Part shown: piece by piece, positions 1 through 17,973 of the stretch | Layout of the letters: every line of letters begins with the position of its first letter | How positions within the stretch are numbered: the first letter of the stretch is position 1 | From: a virus | Direction: 5' to 3' (one strand) | Length of the DNA stretch: 21,032 nt | Virus record (IMG/VR): IMGVR_UViG_3300047299_000014 | Location: 1-21,032 of that record | The notes under the pieces: generated by a model | What the model saw: the letters and a program-made list of their open reading frames with translations, nothing else | What the model was told of the DNA's origin: nothing | Database searches by the model: none | Translations under genes and position numbers: made by a program

Positions 1-473
1 CATTCAGCCTGCACCACAGCGCGATAAGTACCACCAGGAAACGCCTTGTTGTACCCATACTTGGCCGTGCTGGATACCTTAAACCATGTAGATCCAGCAA
101 GGTTCAAGCCGTATTCGGTGGAGTCACCAAAGACAACTTTGCTTGTCTCGTAGGTTGACATTGCGGCATCGGATACTTGAGACACAGAACTTGATCCAGT
201 CCAGACCAATGTGTCATTTAGCGAGGGACTTGTGGAAAAGCTCGTGGGCGTTGTAATCCGCGCTTTGTATGCGTTAGCCAGAGAAACGTCATACCGGATG
301 ACAGGCATCACACCACCGTCAGCAGGAGCCGTACTGAGTTTGTCGGCAGTAGGGTTTCCGTACACACCAGGCGTGTCTGTACTGATAACGCACTTGGATT
401 GCACGTTACCGGAAATAATGACTTCCTCTGCAAAGCAGATATTGGTCAACAGCAAAAGAAAAAGATACCTCAT
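1..473 (-). CDS. Secreted protein of unknown function (3' end outside window)
   Basis: The frame starts at ATG 473 and stays open for 157 codons to the left edge, so the C-terminus is missing. The first 15 residues, MRYLFLLLLTNICFA, form a clear signal peptide, with likely cleavage before EEVIISG. The mature part is rich in Ser, Thr, Gly and Val, alternates polar and hydrophobic residues like a beta-sandwich, has a cysteine early (SKCVI), and reaches FPGGTYRAVVQAE at the edge. That ending and the early cysteine recall secreted pilin-like or spore-coat-U-like beta proteins, but this is a weak structural guess. The start follows the upstream stop by two bases and has GAGG five bases before ATG, so it is translated with its neighbour. 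It is the third signal-peptide gene in a row. Function unknown. Confidence 0.78.
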   Translation of the reverse strand, partial: MRYLFLLLLTNICFAEEVIISGNVQSKCVISTDTPGVYGNPTADKLSTAPADGGVMPVIRYDVSLANAYKARITTPTSFSTSPSLNDTLVWTGSSSVSQVSDAAMSTYETSKVVFGDSTEYGLNLAGSTWFKVSSTAKYGYNKAFPGGTYRAVVQAE

Positions 474-475
474 GA

Positions 476-1291
476 TTACCTCTGATATTGAGAATCAACC
501 ATACGCTCGTGCAATATCTGTTGAGCCAGACCATTACGCAAGCCCACTTTACTTTCTGGCAGTTTAGCGTCTACAAGTTTCACTGTCTCTCTGTAAACAC
601 CGCCATCAATTTTCAATGTGTAGTAACTACTTAAATTAGTCACGTTCATTGATTGAAGAATCATTGACTGTGCAATGCCCTCCACAATTTTGTCAGAATC
701 TTTGATTTTCTCGATTTTCTCTTTTTTTGCCTCTTGTTGCTTGTATTCCTGCTCAGTCTTACTCATTGCTGACTTTACAGACGAATCATCCAAAGCACTG
801 TAAACGGCAGGAGTCTCAGGTATCACTGGCTTGTAACCAGGGCAACTAGGACTACTCTGAGGATTGAAACAATGGTCAATCTTGTATGTATATACAACAT
901 TTGGCTTTTCTACCGTACCTTGGCCATCAACCTCAATAGACCCCTTGCCCCAATTACCAATCGGCACATTGTCAACAGAAGCCATCTTGTTGATTGTTGT
1001 ACCAGGCCGACCAGACCAGTCATCAGTCTCACGAAAAACGTACCCATTTCCTCGTGCATCCAAATTTTGCACATGAACAAGCATGGCATCTTGAGGACGT
1101 TTCACGGCTGTATATTGATAGATCACACCGTTAACAGTAAGCCCAGACTCTTTTGGTAGGACGCTCATATCCCACGTTAAACCGCCCACAGCGGCATTTG
1201 TAGTCTGTCCGTAGGTAAACGGCTCAGAGTAAGAGCAAGAGGCCCAAAACGCCCAATAAAGAGCCAGAGCCGAAAGTCGTAGATTTCTCAT
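476..1291 (-). CDS. Secreted protein of unknown function, 271 aa
   Basis: I chose ATG 1291 because GGAGG lies six bases upstream and because the protein then opens with a signal peptide: MRNLRLSALALYWAFWASC, likely cut after SYS. The frame is also open further upstream to 1348, but that gives an unlikely Arg-rich leader. The mature protein has a beta-rich N-terminal half containing a CFNPQSSPSCPGY segment with two cysteines that could form a disulphide. A Lys/Glu/Gln-rich stretch (KTEQEYKQQEAKKEKIEKIK), probably a coiled coil or helix, follows, then a short C-terminal domain. The gene overlaps the preceding gene by 68 bases and is followed after two bases by another secreted protein gene. I do not recognise the family. 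The context suggests action in the periplasm or at the host surface, or incorporation in the particle. Confidence 0.8.
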   Translation of the reverse strand: MRNLRLSALALYWAFWASCSYSEPFTYGQTTNAAVGGLTWDMSVLPKESGLTVNGVIYQYTAVKRPQDAMLVHVQNLDARGNGYVFRETDDWSGRPGTTINKMASVDNVPIGNWGKGSIEVDGQGTVEKPNVVYTYKIDHCFNPQSSPSCPGYKPVIPETPAVYSALDDSSVKSAMSKTEQEYKQQEAKKEKIEKIKDSDKIVEGIAQSMILQSMNVTNLSSYYTLKIDGGVYRETVKLVDAKLPESKVGLRNGLAQQILHERMVDSQYQR

Positions 1292-1736
1292 CCTTGACCT
1301 CCACTGGTTTCGGGTTTGCCTGCCATGCCGCCTTTGCAGCAGGCCCAATCATCCCATCGTAAGGACAAGGCGTGCCAGCGTGCATCATGGCATCAAAGAC
1401 CTTTTGGTCTTGGCACATCACAGATACAGCGGCTACTTTCATGCCCATGTCGTACAGGGTCTTGGCGTTCTTCAAACGGATACAGTTTTCTTCGGTGAAT
1501 GTCGTACCAGCAGAGATGCCGAGAATCTGGGTTTGCACTGCGCCAGCAACTCCAACCGTACACAGATCGGATGTCGCATTTGCGCCAATTTGCGGAGAGA
1601 TTGCAGACGGAGGTGGAGATTTGACCGTAGTGGTCATGCTGCCATTTGTGGTGACAGTGCTCGTGTTTGTGGAAATAGTCTCAATCGGCTGTGCAAGTGC
1701 CGATGGTATTAGGAGAGCAATCAAGTATTTACGCAT
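1224..1736 (-). CDS. Exported, possibly membrane-anchored protein of unknown function, 170 aa
   Basis: The protein opens with a signal peptide, MRKYLIALLIPSALA, likely cut before QP. A Thr/Ser-rich low-complexity segment follows. Then comes a compact domain with three cysteines (SDLCTVG, EENCIRL, VMCQDQ) plus a fourth in GTPCPYDGMIG, an even number that would suit two disulphides in the periplasm. The C-terminus is strikingly hydrophobic (LLGVLGLLLLL and stop), so it could be a membrane anchor. I recall similar unnamed proteins from environmental phages but know no function. The start overlaps the end of a 30-residue membrane protein by eight bases, and the end overlaps the next secreted protein by 68 bases. 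It could be an envelope protein for exclusion or lysis, but nothing in it identifies an activity. Confidence 0.8.
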   Translation of the reverse strand: MRKYLIALLIPSALAQPIETISTNTSTVTTNGSMTTTVKSPPPSAISPQIGANATSDLCTVGVAGAVQTQILGISAGTTFTEENCIRLKNAKTLYDMGMKVAAVSVMCQDQKVFDAMMHAGTPCPYDGMIGPAAKAAWQANPKPVEVKDEKSTTFGSGSLLGVLGLLLLL

Positions 1737-1821
1737 ACAGCCCCCACACAGAATAGACAGTCCAAACCATCATTGCCACCACAAGAACAGCAGCAATGAA
1801 GGCAAGGATAAAGTCTTTCAT
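1729..1821 (-). CDS. Membrane micro-protein, 30 aa
   Basis: A 30-codon frame runs from ATG 1821 to TAA at 1729. Its product begins MKDFILAFIAAVLVVAMMV and continues to VWGLYA, giving one clear transmembrane helix with a short charged N-terminus. It overlaps the stop of the preceding gene in an ATGA junction and overlaps the next start by eight bases, so it fills the space between two genes with no slack, as translationally coupled phage genes do. No strong Shine-Dalgarno sequence is seen, so coupling would be needed. Single-helix peptides of this kind can be pinholin-like, lysis regulators or inner-membrane exclusion factors, but none of these can be assigned. Confidence 0.6.
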   Translation of the reverse strand: MKDFILAFIAAVLVVAMMVWTVYSVWGLYA

Positions 1822-2592: not shown

Positions 2593-4563
2593 TTACAGAT
2601 TAGCGGCATCCAAACGTGCCTTGAGTTGGTCAATGGTATTTTGCTGCTCTTGAATCAAAGCCACAAGGTTTGCCATCACTTCAGGGCTACTTGGCTGGAT
2701 AGATTGGTACACAGGCTTGCCATCAGCATCCACAGCATCTTTTGTCCCGTTGCCAGAATACTTGGCAACTTCCATAAACTCGTGAGCAATGAAACCAACA
2801 CCTTTGCCAGAGCCATCCCACCAGTCCCAAGTCTTAGGCTGCAAAGCCATCACAAAGGCTTTGGCGCCAGTCAGAGCAGCAGGATTGTTCTTCAGGCGGT
2901 AGTCAGAGGTCAGGTTGTAGAGAACACCGGTGGTGCCATTTTGTGTGATAGAGCCAATACCAGTGCCGTTGTATGAAAAGGTGGCATATACAGCACCACC
3001 ACCTGTTCCCGATTGGTGTCCGATTGCAATACCTGACGCACTTCCGGCAGAAAAGTCTCTGAGCAAACAGAAACCGACAGTTGGCGTCCCTGTTGCACTC
3101 GTAGTCCCCACCAGCAAGTTACCACTCGCATCCAGCGTCATCGCCTGAGTGAAGCTGATAGCGTTGCCTGCTGTGCCGGAGGGGGCGGTGTACCAAACAT
3201 GCTGACCAGACGACTGAGAATACTGGGTGGCGTACCCATTCGTAATGTACTTGTTCCCTGCGTTATAGTACCAGTTGGCCGACAGAATTGCTTGGTTGTT
3301 ATATCCGGTAATGGAAGCCTGATTCGCTTGAAACACAGGCCCAACTGTCGCCCAAGCACTCGGAGTCACCCCGAGGCCGAGGTTGCCGGAGTTATCCAGC
3401 GTGAGCTTTGTCGCATAGCTGCTGGACGGTGTTTGCCAGATGAAGTTGCCTGCGTTGGTTAAGCCCACAAACCCGGTAACGCCTGTGTTTTTCAGCCCGA
3501 TATAAACATCAGTAGTGCTTGCTTCAAACAAGGAAACTGTAGAGCTTGCGCCGCCCAAAACATGAAGCTTATAAGTAGGCGAACTCGTCCCAATGCCAAG
3601 ACCTGTGGAGGTCAGGCGCATTTGTTCGGAGCCGCCATGATAGAAACGAATGTTGTTTGAACCTGCGGGATACAAAGTTAGGTCATTACTTGTGCCGCTG
3701 CCTATGATTCCGCTGTCAGTTCCAACATAACCAGCGTTTGAGCCTTGAGCATACAAGGCAAAATAAGCACCATTACCAGCACCAGTTCCACCGAAAAGCT
3801 TGGCAACAGAAACAGATGATGATGTGACTCCAAAAATTGAAGTCCCATCAAACGTCAGCGCACTCCCCGTGGTCAGGACTTTGGAGCCGTTGAGGTAGGC
3901 CACGCCGTTGGCGGTGCCACCAGAGAGCGTTACAGCGCCAGAAGCAGAAAGGGTAGTGACAGATGCAGTCCCACCAGATACGTTTGTCGCAGTCGTAGCC
4001 GTAGCAGCGTTTCCATAGATGTCACCGCTAATTTTGCTACCAGCCAATGACGTAATCCACGCAGGGTTTGAATACGAACCAGTTGAATAAAGACCGTTTG
4101 TGACAGTTCCAGCATTTCCACTGACATCACCAGTAACGTTTCCTGTCAAATTGCCAGAAAAACCACTTGTTGCAGTAATAGTCGTTCCTGTAATCAGTGC
4201 AGGCGTTGTTCCACCAATCGTAGTTCCGTTAATCGTGCCACCAGTAATCGTCACAGAAGCCAGTGCATCAGCTTCCATGGCATTGTTCAACTCAGCACGA
4301 GTGATTGATTTCAGCGTCAGCGCAGATTGATCCCAGATCAGGAACTTGTCATCAGAAGCGGTAGATGCGCCATCAATCGTTGACAAAGTGGTCGGATTGA
4401 CGTTTGCCAAGTTTTCTTTAGCAAGCGGATAACCACCAGCAAGCGTGCCGTCATGGATAACAGCTGTGTCCTTTGTGGTGTCGATGGTGACTTCACCCTC
4501 AAGACCAGTGAAAGTTGCGTGTTCGGCAGTTGTGCCACGGCGATGTTGTACGGCAGTAGTCAT
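2593..4563 (-). CDS. Tail fibre with Mtd-like N-terminus and S74 self-cleaving chaperone
   Basis: This 656-residue protein is probably the receptor-binding fibre. Its first 50 residues (MTTAVQHRRGTTAEHATFTG and following VTIDTTKDTAVIHDGT) match the N-terminal domain of major-tropism-determinant-type fibres, which attaches to the tail. Residues about 130 to 540 are a Gly/Ser/Thr/Asn-rich shaft with repeats such as GIGTSSPTYKLHV and GLGVTPSAW. The last 104 residues are a Peptidase_S74 intramolecular chaperone, with the Ser553-Lys558 dyad in SDYRLK, followed by GFIAHEF and a C-terminal helix (LVALIQEQQNTIDQLKARL). In this family the chaperone trimerises the fibre and cleaves itself off before the serine. 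The start has GAGGT six bases upstream, and the gene has its own promoter-like sequence. Confidence 0.9.
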   Translation of the reverse strand: MTTAVQHRRGTTAEHATFTGLEGEVTIDTTKDTAVIHDGTLAGGYPLAKENLANVNPTTLSTIDGASTASDDKFLIWDQSALTLKSITRAELNNAMEADALASVTITGGTINGTTIGGTTPALITGTTITATSGFSGNLTGNVTGDVSGNAGTVTNGLYSTGSYSNPAWITSLAGSKISGDIYGNAATATTATNVSGGTASVTTLSASGAVTLSGGTANGVAYLNGSKVLTTGSALTFDGTSIFGVTSSSVSVAKLFGGTGAGNGAYFALYAQGSNAGYVGTDSGIIGSGTSNDLTLYPAGSNNIRFYHGGSEQMRLTSTGLGIGTSSPTYKLHVLGGASSTVSLFEASTTDVYIGLKNTGVTGFVGLTNAGNFIWQTPSSSYATKLTLDNSGNLGLGVTPSAWATVGPVFQANQASITGYNNQAILSANWYYNAGNKYITNGYATQYSQSSGQHVWYTAPSGTAGNAISFTQAMTLDASGNLLVGTTSATGTPTVGFCLLRDFSAGSASGIAIGHQSGTGGGAVYATFSYNGTGIGSITQNGTTGVLYNLTSDYRLKNNPAALTGAKAFVMALQPKTWDWWDGSGKGVGFIAHEFMEVAKYSGNGTKDAVDADGKPVYQSIQPSSPEVMANLVALIQEQQNTIDQLKARLDAANL

Positions 4564-5743: not shown

Positions 5744-8700
5744 GCTGACAAGTCTCCAATCTTGACTCGCAGAACACCGCTTGAGTCATAGACCTTAATC
5801 ACACGATTTGTCATTTCCATCCGTGCGCCAGACGTTGCAGTCTTGACATCAAAGTTGGCAGAGCCGACCAATGCGATGCTTTGAATCTTTGCCGCTGTGA
5901 TTGCAGCATCTTCAATCTTTGCCGTTGTGATTGCACCGTTGGCAATCTTGGCGTTTGTGATTACCGCATCGTTGATCTGGGCCGCGCTAGTGATAATGCC
6001 TGAAGATGCAATCAAACCACCAGTGATTGAGTTAGCAACAATCTTGTCAGCCGTAATCGCCCCAGAAGCGATTTTGTCTGCAATGACAGAGGAAGATGCC
6101 AACTGGTCAGAACTGATGGCTCCAGCGGCGATTTTGCCTGCTGTAATGGCATTTGCAGCCAGTTGGTCAGTACCAACAGCACCAGCAGCAATCGTTCCAG
6201 CCGTTACAGCGTCAGAAGCAATCTTGCCTGCCGTGATAGCACCAGCAGCAATCTGACCAGCAGAAATCGTCCCAGATAGGTCACCAGTAGCAACAGCAGC
6301 AGTCCAGGCTGAACCAGTGTAACGGTAAATCTTGTTGTCGCTTGTCAGAACAACCGTTCGGCCTTGGAAGTTACCGGACGAAGGCAAAGCAGATACAACC
6401 TCAACAGGACGCAGAGACTGGCTGAAGTTTGACGAGCCAAGCGTGCCTGAAATATCAGCAGCAGCAACAGACGTATCCCATGACGAACCCGTGTAACGAT
6501 ACATCTTGTTGTCAGTGGTCAGGAATACGATTTTCGGGCCTGTGTAGCCAGCAGCCACCGGAAGCTCATCAACAATCTTTACAGGCTCAATACCCGTGGC
6601 AAACGATTCAGCGTTTACCGATCCTGAAGTGATCGAGAAGATGTCATCCGTCCAGACGGTGTTTGTTGCATCCCAGCGGTACAGCTTATTGTTTGTCGTG
6701 TCGTACTTAATCTGGCCGTCAAAATCGCCAGTAGCAGGAAGCGTAGCGACAGGCTCAATGCCGTAAGCACCAGCCTCGCTAAACAGATTCATCACCTCCT
6801 CAGAGAATGAGTCAGAATCGACAAACTCAGTCGTTGCAGATACGCCAGTTGAGAAATCAGACTTGTTGCCAGTACGGTCAACCGACTTCAGCCAGTAATA
6901 ACGAGTGATGTTAATGCCCAAAGGAGCGTCAACAAACCGAGAGCCACGCAGAACTCCAACAAGCGTTGCAGTACCTGAATTATTAGTTGTGTTCCTGTAA
7001 ACCTCAACATAATCAAAATCCGAAACTGTCGGGTTAATCCAAGTCAGGACAATCTGGCGATAGTCACCATAAGCAACGATGCTTGATGGCACGTTAGGCG
7101 CAGTCTGGTCACCATAAGTAGTTTCGTTTGACGTAACGAATACCGAGCGAACGCCTAATGTATTGATAGCGCGAACACGGACAGCATATTCAGTACCAGC
7201 AACAGCGTTTGTAATGACGTAGTAAGGTGTCGTAACGAAAACAGAGTTGTAATTCGTTTCGCCAGAAGTCGTTGCATCAGTAATTGCACCGTAGTCTGCA
7301 CCACTGTCAGCGGAATTAGTAATCAGACCGTAGTTTGTGCTGGCCGTTGCGCTTTCTCCAACAGAACCCCAATCGAAGTTTGATGCTCCACGAATGTATT
7401 GGACTTCGTATTGATAGACAAAAGCGTTTGCAGGCGGTGTCCATGTGACCAACAGACCAGATTGAATATTGCCATCAGGTGTCGGGTTATTGATTGCCGT
7501 GATTGTCAGATCGGTCGGCGCAGCAACAGAGAAAGCATTTGGCAGGTTTGTATTTGGCGCAGGATCGAACGCCTGTTCTTCAGCGGTTGTCCAATCAAAT
7601 ACATCAGTGCTGATCTCACGAAGCTCAAGATCAACACCCAAAGCCTCGCCAAGTGCCACGTTAAGCGATACAACTTCAAACGGCTTTGCAGACCAACCAA
7701 GGCGCGTATTGTTGACCTGAATGATGTCACCAACATTGGCCTTAAGACCTTGCAGCTTGAGTGGCATGGTCAATGTGATTTGCTGACGAGCCTTCAGCAG
7801 TTCAATCTTTGCCAGACGCTGCGCCATCGTTGCAGACGTAGTGAACGGCAAAGTGATGTTCTTGTAGATTTCCTCGCCACCATCTTCAGTGACAGCGGTG
7901 GATGACTGAATGGACGGGAAATCAGTAGAGATGTAAGCGTTGTCAGACGATACAAACACGCCCTTAACGCCGTTGAAGTTCTCACGGCGCGACACCAAAG
8001 TCTGGACAGTAAAGCCAGAGCGAAGATCATCTTCATCAAACGTCAGAGTTGGCGTGTAGTAAGCACCAGCCAAGATGCGCCATTTGCCGCCAGACCATAC
8101 TGCCTTGCCTGCCATAGACGACAGCATTTGCAAGATGATTTCTTCAGGCGTTGAACTTGTGGCAAAAAAGCCATTCAACGCATATTTATGCTCAGTCCCA
8201 CCAGCAGCCAAGTCAACATCTTCATCACAGATATTGGCAGCAGCAATCAGCGCAGTCTCGTCAATCTCGTCCGCATAGACACAGCCCATGCCACGTTTTT
8301 CATCACAGAGATAATCTGCAACACACAAAGCAGGGTTGTTTGACCAGACAGTTGTTTCAGAACGTGGGTCGTAAACCTTCTTGCCACGAATCAGGAACGA
8401 GAAATTAGGCATCCCATTGGGATACACATCCTGGTCGTATTCAAGACGGATATAAGCCGCAGCACGGCCTTTCATGCGGTGGTTTGTAGTCCAGTTGCTG
8501 TCAGACTCAGAAACCAAGTCCTCAAACGCCGTCTGGCTGTCAGTTCCATATTTGAACTTGACGCGAGCCTTACCAGAGTAAGTGCCACCAGTCACATTGC
8601 CATTGGCATCAATCGTTACCTCAGTATCGCCAAAGTAAATCTTTTCAACAGCATCAATCTCATGACCAGCCAATGCGATGACAATGTGCAGATACTTGTT

Positions 8701-14672: not shown

Positions 14673-15764
14673 TTAGGGAGTGATGTCTGCGTCACCCAAA
14701 CAGAAGCTGGCGGCGTGGCGCACAGCAACGTCAGCGGACTGCATAGCCACCACACGCACAGTACCAGTGGTAGAAGCGGTGTAGGGGTCAACCAGAATGT
14801 CCAGACCACCCCACATACCGATAAGCAGGTCAGCGAAGTTACCGAAGTACACATCGCCAGCAGCCACTTGGTTCGACACAATGGCTTTGTAGCCGTTGAG
14901 TTGACCGCCGTCCAGAGCAAACAGGCCAGAACCGCTGTCTTTGGCAGTGGTTTTCAGAGCGCCAGCCATGGCAGCGTTCATGATGTAGGCCAGATTGCCG
15001 CGCAGAGCGTTATCAGCAGCCACTTCGGTTTCCATGCCAACAGCTTCAGCGAAGGTCGGGTAGGTAGCAGCGAAGTCCTTGGTGTTGATGCCGCTGGTGT
15101 TGCGGATACCAGTGGGTTGACCGCTGGTACCAGAACCACTCAGAGCGCCGAGGTCGATGGCCAGAGCCAGAGCAGAAGCCAGATCGTTACGAACCAGAGC
15201 TTCAACATCAGGCGAACCTTGCATCATCAACTGACGGGTCACATCGGTGTAAGCGCCAACAGTCTTGGGCGACATGGTGATCGAAGTGATCGTCATTTCG
15301 CTCTCGCTAGCAGCGGAACCTTCAGTGAACCAGCCACCAGAGGAAGCAGCAGACTTCTTCGGAATCTTGATGTTGCCTTGCAGACCAGTCAGCATCGTTG
15401 CGCCAGCTTGCATCACGCTAGAAGCGTTACGCAGGACATCAACGAAAGCGTCCGGACGGAACTGCTGACCAACCACACCAGCGTCATCGGTGGTGTTCAG
15501 GTCACGCTTAGTCCACTGGCGCAGAACGTCAGCGGGAACCAGCAGACCTTGAGCCGATTGGCCGAAGGCGCGTTGAGCAGCTTCAGAGCACTCGAATTCA
15601 AAGGCAGCGGCGCGTTGAGCAGCGCGGTCGGTTGGGTTGGCCAGAGCGTTGATAGCACGCATCAGGCTGAAGCGTTTAACTTCAGTCTTGTTCATGCCAA
15701 CATCTTGCTGGACGGGAGCGTCAAAAGCGCGGCTGTCAACAGCCACTTGCACGGAGTTTTCCAT
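14673..15764 (-). CDS. Internally initiated major capsid protein, 363 aa (possible second product)
   Basis: Met242 of the fusion protein, at ATG 15764, is preceded by AAAGGA with a seven-base gap, as good a ribosome-binding site as any in the window. It lies at the end of the linker between protease and capsid domains. The product would start MENSVQVAVDSRAFDAPVQQ and contain a short N-terminal delta-like region plus the complete capsid fold, a normal length for unfused capsid precursors. Separate initiation would let the phage make hundreds of capsid subunits per protease, as lambda does with nested genes C and Nu3. Whether this start is used is inferred from the site only. Confidence 0.5.
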   Translation of the reverse strand: MENSVQVAVDSRAFDAPVQQDVGMNKTEVKRFSLMRAINALANPTDRAAQRAAAFEFECSEAAQRAFGQSAQGLLVPADVLRQWTKRDLNTTDDAGVVGQQFRPDAFVDVLRNASSVMQAGATMLTGLQGNIKIPKKSAASSGGWFTEGSAASESEMTITSITMSPKTVGAYTDVTRQLMMQGSPDVEALVRNDLASALALAIDLGALSGSGTSGQPTGIRNTSGINTKDFAATYPTFAEAVGMETEVAADNALRGNLAYIMNAAMAGALKTTAKDSGSGLFALDGGQLNGYKAIVSNQVAAGDVYFGNFADLLIGMWGGLDILVDPYTASTTGTVRVVAMQSADVAVRHAASFCLGDADITP

Positions 15765-16487
15765 TTTGGTTTCCTTTGGGATTTTGACTTCGGTTACCAC
15801 TTCAGCGCGGATTTCCTCAGTCACGGTTTCGGTAATTTGTGGCTCTTCAACCACAGCTTCAGAGTTAGCCAAGACTTCTTCAAGACTACGACCAATGCCA
15901 ACGGACGGGTCAGCGGGAATAGACACGATAGATGCCTCAACTGGTCGCCAATTTGTTGCGCGGTAGGTGCGACCATTGTTCTCTTTCACCATCTTGGTAA
16001 TAGAGTAGCCAATGGACACATTCCCACGAATGTTGTCAGCGACATCACCATAAACCTCTGAAGCCAATGCGCTCTTACCGAAACGCACTGTCGCACGCAA
16101 CTTGCGTGCCGAGCCATCGAGGGATACGGATTCGATAACGCCAATCTGCTTTTCAGGATCATGATCCAGCAAGAGAGGCGCACGACCAGAGTTCAGGAAA
16201 CTCAAGTCGATAGATTCAGGAGAGTGATCCAAGACTTCAGACCCAAACGAACGCTCAACAGGCAATTCGCTGGAAATGGCCATGTTTACACGGCGCTCGT
16301 CTTGCACAACAGCCTCCATAGCGTCTGCACGAGTCAAACGCTCAGATTGCTTACGTTCTTCAGTAATCGCAACTTCTTCAACAACTTCAGTTGTCTCAGC
16401 AACAACCTCTTCGGCCACAGCTTGTTCAGCAACAACTTCAGCAGGAGTTTCTGCGATTACTTCATCAGTGGTAATGGGATTTTCCAT
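14673..16487 (-). CDS. Fused prohead protease and HK97-type major capsid protein
   Basis: The frame gives 604 residues from ATG 16487, which has AAAGG six bases upstream; it opens upstream to 16577, but that would overlap the portal gene without a ribosome-binding site. Residues about 70 to 200 are an S78-family prohead protease: FGSEVLDHSPESIDLS, LLLDHDPEKQIGVIES with the likely catalytic His109, NVSIGYSI with Ser158, and VEASIVSIPADPSVG. Before it lies an Ala/Val/Glu-rich acidic tail and after it a similar acidic linker (210 to 240). From about residue 265 the HK97-fold capsid protein follows (GLLVPADVLRQW, FVDVLRNASSVMQ, GGWFTEGSAASESEM, PYTASTTGTVRVVAMQSADV). The protease should free the capsid during maturation. 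Confidence 0.92.
   Translation of the reverse strand: MENPITTDEVIAETPAEVVAEQAVAEEVVAETTEVVEEVAITEERKQSERLTRADAMEAVVQDERRVNMAISSELPVERSFGSEVLDHSPESIDLSFLNSGRAPLLLDHDPEKQIGVIESVSLDGSARKLRATVRFGKSALASEVYGDVADNIRGNVSIGYSITKMVKENNGRTYRATNWRPVEASIVSIPADPSVGIGRSLEEVLANSEAVVEEPQITETVTEEIRAEVVTEVKIPKETKMENSVQVAVDSRAFDAPVQQDVGMNKTEVKRFSLMRAINALANPTDRAAQRAAAFEFECSEAAQRAFGQSAQGLLVPADVLRQWTKRDLNTTDDAGVVGQQFRPDAFVDVLRNASSVMQAGATMLTGLQGNIKIPKKSAASSGGWFTEGSAASESEMTITSITMSPKTVGAYTDVTRQLMMQGSPDVEALVRNDLASALALAIDLGALSGSGTSGQPTGIRNTSGINTKDFAATYPTFAEAVGMETEVAADNALRGNLAYIMNAAMAGALKTTAKDSGSGLFALDGGQLNGYKAIVSNQVAAGDVYFGNFADLLIGMWGGLDILVDPYTASTTGTVRVVAMQSADVAVRHAASFCLGDADITP
15772..15777 (-). promoter_or_regulatory. 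Internal Shine-Dalgarno sequence at protease-capsid joint
   Basis: AAAGGA on the minus strand precedes the in-frame ATG 15764 by seven bases. It falls in the coding sequence for Pro-Lys-Glu-Thr of the linker, a region free to vary, so a maintained ribosome-binding site there is plausible. Confidence 0.5.
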
Positions 16488-16509
16488 CTCTGACCTTTCG
16501 TTAACTATA

Positions 16510-17973
16510 TTATGCAACAGGCTCTTGCTGATTGGCAATATCAGCAGGAACAGGAGCTTTGTTGCCAAATGGCTCAAATGCCATTTTCAGACCATAACTC
16601 GCAGCCAATTCTTTTTCGGCTTGAATCTGGTCAAACTGCTCTTCAACATCACGACCATATTGGCTTGCAATGTCTTGCATGGACAAAATACCATTTTGCA
16701 AACCAACAACAGCAGCGTTCATTTCTTTCAAAGGATCAACCCACTGGAAACCACGGGCACGATAAACAGTTGCATCAGCAAATTTATCAAAACGGCTTGC
16801 AGGAATCATGATTACGCCATTTTCCATAATGCTCATCAAGAAAGCATTGAAAACAGGCTCAATAAAATGCTGAATCAGGAAATCCTGCAAAACCTTCCAC
16901 TGGTCACGATCTTCAAGCGTGCCTTGACGAATAGACGAGTAGCTAACGCCTTCAAGATCGTTTGCAAGGCTTGTGTAAGAAACACCAAGACCAGAAGCAA
17001 TGCCTCGCAAGATTGCCTTCTCAAAGTCGGCAAAAGCAGAGGTCGGGTGAGTTGGGTCAAACTGCTGGAACTCAACACCTTGAGGTAGTTGATGGAATGT
17101 TCCAGGATCGGCTTCCATAATTGGCACTTTGTTTTCAGTGTCATCAGCAACAAAGCCATCACCTTGAGGCGATGTAAAGAAACCCATTTTTGATGCGCCA
17201 ACACGAGCAGCAACCAACTCAGCTTCACGGTAGCCAGCAAGCATCTTCAAAGAAGAAATCACCGGAGACATCCAAGGAGCGCCGCGGGTTTGCATGGCTC
17301 GCTCTGGCAGATAAGCGTGAATGATCTTGTCCGCTGTCACTCGGTTGTACGACTTGCCCATCCACATTGTAGATGTATCGCCAGGATGCGAAGTGAACAA
17401 ATGGTAAGCAACTGGACGATTGAATTTGTCTAACTCAACGCCCATGCGAATACGGTTTCCGTTAGGAAGAACAGCGTTGTATTCCTCATCAAGCAAATCA
17501 GTCTCAATGAATTCAAGCGCAAACATGAAATCATTTGGATATTTGACAAGACGAACAAGAACTTCGCCATCGCGGATAAGAGACTCAACAAACAGTCGTT
17601 GAGCATCTACCCAAGACATACGACCATCAACGGTACACATACCCTTGCGAGTCCACTTTTTCCAAGAGTTCTCAACAATGGTATTTCCGATCATGTCCAT
17701 CGCGCCATTGTCGTTACGGGCTTTGACTTGAATCGTCACGCCACGCTCACCAACAATGTTTGTTTTGGCAAGAGTCAGAAAGCGTTTTGCATATTCGTTG
17801 TTGCGAGACAAATCACGGCAACGATTACGCAATGTCTTTAGTGCGCCTTTGATTTCCTCGTCAGCAGAGCGAGAAGATGCAACAAAGTCAGCAAACAATC
17901 GACCCTGATTGGCGCCAGCATAAGTGCGCTTCTTCAAGGGTTTCTTGCGAGAAAAAATATCAAGGATTCCCAT
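16510..17973 (-). CDS. B: Portal protein, lambda gpB family
   Basis: The 487-residue protein forms the dodecameric channel at one head vertex. It begins MGILDIFSRKKPLKKRTYAG and continues with the lambda-portal hallmarks LRNRCRDLSRNNEYAKRF, TNIVGERGVTIQVK, SLIRDGEVLVRLVKY and then IHAYLPERAMQTRGAPWMSP. The helix REAELVAARVGASKMGFF and the segment SGLGVSYTSLANDLEGVSYS follow. Lambda gpB has 533 residues, so the length fits. I chose ATG 17973, fused to the previous stop as TGATG with GGGGG upstream, instead of the TTG three bases earlier. In the lambda order it is followed by the protease/capsid gene, which starts 22 bases on. Confidence 0.93.
   Translation of the reverse strand: MGILDIFSRKKPLKKRTYAGANQGRLFADFVASSRSADEEIKGALKTLRNRCRDLSRNNEYAKRFLTLAKTNIVGERGVTIQVKARNDNGAMDMIGNTIVENSWKKWTRKGMCTVDGRMSWVDAQRLFVESLIRDGEVLVRLVKYPNDFMFALEFIETDLLDEEYNAVLPNGNRIRMGVELDKFNRPVAYHLFTSHPGDTSTMWMGKSYNRVTADKIIHAYLPERAMQTRGAPWMSPVISSLKMLAGYREAELVAARVGASKMGFFTSPQGDGFVADDTENKVPIMEADPGTFHQLPQGVEFQQFDPTHPTSAFADFEKAILRGIASGLGVSYTSLANDLEGVSYSSIRQGTLEDRDQWKVLQDFLIQHFIEPVFNAFLMSIMENGVIMIPASRFDKFADATVYRARGFQWVDPLKEMNAAVVGLQNGILSMQDIASQYGRDVEEQFDQIQAEKELAASYGLKMAFEPFGNKAPVPADIANQQEPVA

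Follow-up and report, generated by a model that had tools for sequence, protein, structure and literature searches.

The question raised by this locus is what a row of exported proteins does downstream of the fibre genes of a phage, and to which larger unit the row belongs. The window, i.e., the whole stretch of DNA analyzed, is an entire virus record of 21,032 bp, an end-to-end contig without end repeats. Its minus strand carries a siphophage late operon (terminase, portal, capsid, tail and fibres), with five genes arranged head to tail from 2018 to 3 downstream of the fibre genes. These genes and their main parts are:

P0004, 1818..2018, minus strand: 66 aa, coiled coil and C-terminal TM helix; putative lysis-module entry gene, holin accessory-like
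P0005, 1729..1821, minus strand: 30 aa, one TM helix; putative small membrane peptide of the lysis module
P1, 1224..1736, minus strand: 170 aa; signal peptide, low-complexity linker, conserved Cys domain and hydrophobic C-terminal tail
P1 C-terminal hydrophobic tail, 1227..1280, minus strand: TTFGSGSLLGVLGLLLLL; hydrophobic in 65/65 non-redundant copies
P2, 476..1291, minus strand: 271 aa; signal peptide, jelly-roll domain, coiled coil and conserved C-terminal helix
P2 predicted jelly-roll, lectin-like domain, 875..1219, minus strand: residues 25–139; pLDDT mostly >90 here in the AlphaFold2 model
P3, 3..473, minus strand: ≥157 aa, truncated at the 3′ end by the contig; signal peptide, predicted pilin-like beta-sandwich

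Overlaps of 4 bp (P0004/P0005), 8 bp (P0005/P1) and 68 bp (P1/P2) join the first four genes, and a gap of 2 bp separates P2 from P3. The latter is short of its relatives by just the last 3–4 residues and the stop (consensus end ..AECIAx). The initial annotation had placed the cassette at 1–1821, coordinates that leave out most of P0004 (2018–1818).

Sequence and predicted fold of P1, P2 and P3

The comparison of the window with its closest relative, L094, and with L093, where synonymous change is unsaturated, gave dN/dS values of 0.07–0.18 for P1–P3. Because of these values, the three can be regarded as real genes under purifying selection. Their N-termini are signal-peptide-like as judged by the peak 12-residue Kyte-Doolittle mean hydropathy, a hydropathy test rather than a trained predictor. 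The peak values in the window are 2.16 for P1, 1.46 for P2 and 2.43 for P3, and values >1.6 were found among non-redundant relatives in 62/65 copies of P1, 73/85 of P2 and 72/75 of P3. The hydrophobic tail of P1 is of the GGLxALLLLL type and has no basic residues after it in every copy checked (n = 65). P1 matches phrog_20531, the function of which is unknown.

The model of P3 has a mean pLDDT of 91. Its best Foldseek match in the PDB was the pilin domain of PapG (probability 1.00, E 7.5e-3), and other matches were CfaB, FimG, FimF, CsuA/B and Caf1, all of this with modest structural similarity (weak E-values, TM-score 0.3–0.5, up to 0.52). With hhalign, the P3 profile gave probabilities of 78–82% versus 14 E. 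coli K-12 pilins, and all the other tested pairs gave 9% or less. Against a viral fold library, P3 gave nothing at E <0.001. So, it can be said that P3 resembles pilins both by predicted fold and by profile, the similarity being weak; a pilin-like surface layer was among the roles suggested in the initial annotation, and P3 is the candidate for it.

Concerning P2, the AlphaFold2 model (pLDDT 83) contains an N-terminal beta-sandwich followed by a coiled coil and the conserved C-terminal helix. The beta-sandwich is predicted to be a lectin-like jelly-roll, nearest to TNF-like lectins and BcsB (weak matches, E 3e-4, low TM), and it also matches weakly viral capsid and tail-knob folds. That P2 could be a lipoprotein was ruled out: the family lacks a conserved Cys, and its consensus SYSYSE suits ordinary signal peptidase.

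A six-gene set inherited as a block

At least 588 relatives were found in a scan of IMG/VR with P1. In about 150 loci fetched with P1, P2 or P3, the order P1-P2-P3 was fixed, with absences almost solely at contig ends. The window P3 is 49–78% identical to 54 relatives, and the window P2 is 32–65% identical to 61. The clustering of neighbours added three genes, P4, P5 and P6, after P1-P2-P3 in the relatives. P4 (~123 aa) is exported according to its signal-peptide-like N-terminus, and P5 (~138 aa) is exported too, with a helix-like C-terminal part; neither matches any known family confidently. P6 (~170 aa) reads from its sequence as an inner-membrane protein with one TM helix near the N-terminus, a long, charged, heptad-like coiled coil and a C-terminus ..ALDNPLA.

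All six genes occurred in order in 44 of 85 non-redundant loci, most of the others being cut by contig ends or lacking one gene call. In an IMG/VR scan seeded with P5 (35 contigs, seven of them cut at the sequence end and four already in the first set), P1–P6 were found in order and on one strand in 28/28 untruncated loci. The gene order was constant across scans seeded independently from P1, P2, P3 and P5. P1–P3 open a mobile six-gene unit carried by phages, P1–P6, which is inherited as a block and swapped between phage morphotypes; the window holds the first three genes and the contig end cuts the set.

These results bear on several points of the initial annotation. Its row of exported proteins without known function is borne out for P1–P3 by the signal-peptide-like N-termini, the purifying selection and the constant order, and the co-conservation that it proposed to look for was found in the 28 untruncated loci. 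Its comparison with known virion and spanin proteins, once run, found no similarity for P1–P5. On the other hand, its extent of five genes has to be corrected to six. The Pfam and PHROGs searches of P1–P5 gave no function, and no significant match appeared when solved structures were searched by sequence or profile.

Spread of the set among phages

The carriers of the set include T4-like phages (gp23 in 9 of 37 long set-bearing contigs), T7-like phages (portal in 3 of 39 long contigs) and lambda-like phages (L084 contig and window phage, both with a GpA-type terminase). In a midpoint-rooted tree of P1+P2+P3, most tips of which carry no morphotype label, T4-like copies fell in several separate clades and siphophage copies in two. 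This incongruence of tree and morphotype fits an exchange of the set between phage families. A P1 scan of genome contigs yielded eight loci, all in metagenome bins, and a bacterial origin of the set was rejected: to judge from the record titles, the eight are probably misbinned phage.

The phage type of the window can be compared with cultured phages. From the terminase (62–64% identical) to the gpJ-like gene, the window and two isolated Roseobacter phages, CRP-811 and CRP-821, are colinear; in both isolates, annotated lysis genes come soon after the fibres and the P1–P6 set is missing. Because these colinear phages are without it, the set can be considered accessory in phages of this type. 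Among 50,697 annotated phage records, none carried the full set, the queries P2, P3 and P4 giving no match, and its description was not found in the open-licence papers searched, so the six-gene module is apparently undescribed.

Reduced relatives do occur in a Pelagibacter phage and in T5-like Vibrio phages. In Pelagibacter phage HTVC115P, gp54, gp53 and gp49 are homologous to P1, to the C-terminal part of P2 and to P6, respectively (E 1e-53, 1.6e-6 and 6.5e-33); unlike the full set, this phage has no P3–P5 at that place, and gp53 and gp49 are separated by other small genes. The T5-like Vibrio phage pVp-1 encodes homologs of P3, P4 and P5 as gp077–gp079 with the order kept (E 9e-10, 1.5e-10 and 1.4e-15), but P1, P2 and P6 were not found, and a lipoprotein gene comes next instead. 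A different arrangement was seen in Pelagibacter phages Mosig, HTVC202P and HTVC023P (L153, L154 and L155), where a relative of P1 precedes a long protein with an acidic middle, unrelated to P2 in sequence, similar to it in layout and with a signal-peptide-like start in two of the three. Nearby they encode a membrane protein that has a coiled coil and terminates in NPLA or NPLG.

The spread of the set and the export of its products also bear on the explanation that the six are virion components which become part of the particle either in the periplasm or upon lysis. The genes do come after the fibre genes in the window, and the P2 jelly-roll has the weak matches to capsid and tail-knob folds. 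However, tailed phage particles assemble in the cytoplasm, five of the six proteins have signal-peptide-like N-termini, and the T4-, T7- and lambda-like phages that exchange the set have virions unrelated to one another. This explanation is considered very improbable.

Relation to lysis genes

Relatives of P0004 lie directly before holin and endolysin/peptidase genes, or a few genes from them, in DSL-LC05, ctnlZ23 and Venkman. In ctnlZ23, a P0005-like 30-aa gene comes next after the P0004 relative, and in other phages P0004 relatives (P0005 in one case) are present without P1–P3. From these neighbourhoods, P0004 and P0005 can be assigned to the lysis module, outside the exported set. The treatment of the five genes of the window as one unit thus stands for P1–P3, which travel together with P4–P6, and has to be given up for P0004 and P0005.

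In L094, the P0005 counterpart is followed by P1–P6 and then by a holin-like gene and a T4-type lysozyme (Pfam E 1.4e-31). In ctnlZ23, which has no set, P0005 is followed by two other small genes and then by a related holin-like gene and lysozyme, the label holin-like being read from the sequence of a gene unnamed by Pfam. Because of the gene order of L094 versus ctnlZ23, the set can be located within the lysis module in the lineage of the window and L094. That no endolysin is seen here, as remarked initially, holds within the window, and it is due to the contig end.

A broader view was given by a proximity test, with four endolysin families searched and a simple placement model: of the 18 independent long contigs in which an endolysin was recognised, nine had it ≤2.5 kb from the set (3.6 expected, P = 0.003), and the other nine had no tested endolysin close by. 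The closeness is moderate evidence of a link to lysis. In pVp-1, the P3–P5 relatives lie directly before holin and endolysin genes. The annotated start of pVp-1 gp080 (L158, ~6242–6445) seems late, as an upstream GTG gives a lipoprotein signal (..LMISGC); gp080 may be an o-spanin before the holin.

These data raise the possibility of a lysis accessory, which would open or weaken the outer membrane or time the release, P6 being i-spanin-like and P1, P2 and P5 its outer-membrane or periplasmic partners. In its favour are the place of the set in L094 between P0005 and the holin-like and lysozyme genes, the proximity test, the order of genes in pVp-1, the i-spanin-like topology of P6 and the lack of an identified spanin in ~13% of phages examined (PMC6139136). 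On the other hand, L004 has the set alongside an Rz/Rz1-like pair directly after its lysozyme, consisting of an Rz-like TM/coiled-coil gene (2730–3233) and an overlapping, out-of-frame lipoprotein ORF at ~3055; this coexistence also weakens the idea of the set as a simple spanin replacement. Furthermore, a tested endolysin is missing from the vicinity in half of the independent contigs, the set is missing from CRP-811, CRP-821 and ctnlZ23 in spite of their lysis modules, and six proteins are many. To our knowledge, there is no lysis protein with a pilin-like fold. A lysis accessory is the main rival explanation, though rather unlikely. Envelope modification and a new lysis system, both suggested in the initial annotation, are still candidate roles.

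Comparison with known systems

The set is like the chaperone-usher pili (type 1, P, CFA/I, Csu) in that P3 is similar to a pilin subunit and the exported parts are encoded side by side. P3 appears to be a pilin-type subunit with an incomplete Ig fold, with the weak similarity already mentioned. The usher (PF00577) was above cut-off in 0/37 long set-bearing contigs, some of them fragments, with a positive E. coli control, and the PapD-type chaperone (PF00345) was found in 0/39 long contigs. Two assignments that were plausible by eye gained no support: P4 as a PapD chaperone, from either the PF00345 search or the profile comparison (1.4% with five E. coli chaperones), and P5 as a TolC-like protein, from the profiles. 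We know of no counterparts of P1, P2, P5 and P6 in chaperone-usher pili.

Phage-borne curli (type VIII) are comparable to the set as a multi-gene envelope module of aquatic phages moved between phage families, curli modules being exchanged between pelagiphage families (PMC9599517, PMC7029224). Unlike curli, the candidate subunit of the set is pilin-like and not a curli repeat. A curli link, suggested by the pelagiphage papers, was ruled out by the absence of the CsgG pore (PF03783) from all 37 long set-bearing contigs, with positive controls in four genomes. For phage-borne curli pores, a change of permeability has been proposed (PMC7029224, PMC9599517), and a similar idea can be considered for the set: a periplasmic uptake or secretion device altering the outer-membrane permeability during infection, for nutrient gain or effector export. 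A multi-part exported set with an inner-membrane anchor would suit it, but the searches detected no channel, transporter or energy-coupling family, nor was a TolC-like P5 supported. Such a device seems improbable.

With the two-component spanins (Rz/Rz1), the set shares a protein anchored in the inner membrane whose long coiled coil extends into the periplasm, as P6 reads from its sequence, and the frequent vicinity of holin and endolysin genes. It differs from them in having six genes and in coexisting with an Rz/Rz1-like pair in L004. A motif scan for an o-spanin-like lipobox ORF gave none convincing in the window, L094 or L093; in L084, the sole match was P4, with a doubtful lipobox. The set fits none of the named systems tried, chaperone-usher pili, curli and spanins, and it is filed under none of these, as neither usher, CsgG nor PapD domain was found.

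Proposed mode of action

The co-inheritance, the signal peptides and the topology argue strongly for a joint action of the six products in the host envelope and not in the virion. P3 argues, with moderate strength, that what they build is a pilin-like structure. The chances of the two together, i.e., of a mobile module building a pilin-like structure in the infected cell's envelope, are judged about even. In such a structure, P6 would span the periplasm from the inner membrane, a short structure, on the surface or in the periplasm, would be built from the pilin-like P3, P2 would supply a carbohydrate-binding head, P4 and P5 would be a periplasmic partner and the outer-membrane part, and P1 would be anchored via its hydrophobic tail. 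Being produced late in infection, such a structure would most likely alter the infected-cell surface. The least certain step is the role: it could exclude or capture other phages or cells, or shield progeny from receptors.

A purpose of surface change rather than lysis is favoured weakly to moderately: the predicted folds resemble pilins and lectins, the parts are many, L004 has a spanin-like pair as well, and the curli modules of pelagiphages offer a precedent. Against an envelope structure stand the weak matches of P3, the frequent position of the set beside lysis genes and the lack of cell clumping with phage-encoded curli (PMC9004378). The absence of an usher and of any significant chaperone similarity of P4 leaves the assembly of a pilin-like subunit unexplained. 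A more specific proposal, of a phage-only, horizontally exchanged, self-contained envelope apparatus, in which an usher-free pilin-like polymer with P6 as anchor across the periplasm and the lectin-like P2 would be displayed on cells infected by unrelated aquatic phages, is put forward tentatively, at somewhat less than an even chance.

Strong selection, common to its carriers, must act on a six-gene unit kept intact in aquatic phages of T4-, T7- and lambda-like type. If the surface structure is real, these phages remodel the exterior of the infected cell in a way that differs from both chaperone-usher pili and curli; if the role is in lysis, the set bears on how some phages breach the outer membrane. 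With the gene set now defined, and reduced relatives carried by the cultured phages HTVC115P and pVp-1, the question is open to testing. The novelty claimed is that of the module, whose function we infer.

Additional observations

Some genes close or related to the set are worth noting. In 7 of 85 non-redundant loci, the set is closely followed by a class 3 lipase gene (L032, 13417–14127, and relatives), which may have an envelope role. In one lineage (L046, 9539–9886, and relatives), a small exported protein is encoded just upstream of P1, and it probably matches Pfam Phage_OMP, a cyanophage outer-membrane-like beta barrel. Roseobacter phage CRP-810 gp51 (L156, 9210–9632), annotated as a lysozyme, is a membrane-anchored coiled coil related to P6 (E 2.7e-10), so that its annotation is probably wrong. 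Finally, a 634-aa ORF at the capsid position of the window (14673–16577) aligns with the annotated major capsid proteins of CRP-811 and CRP-821 (56% and 36%) and may be a protease-capsid fusion.
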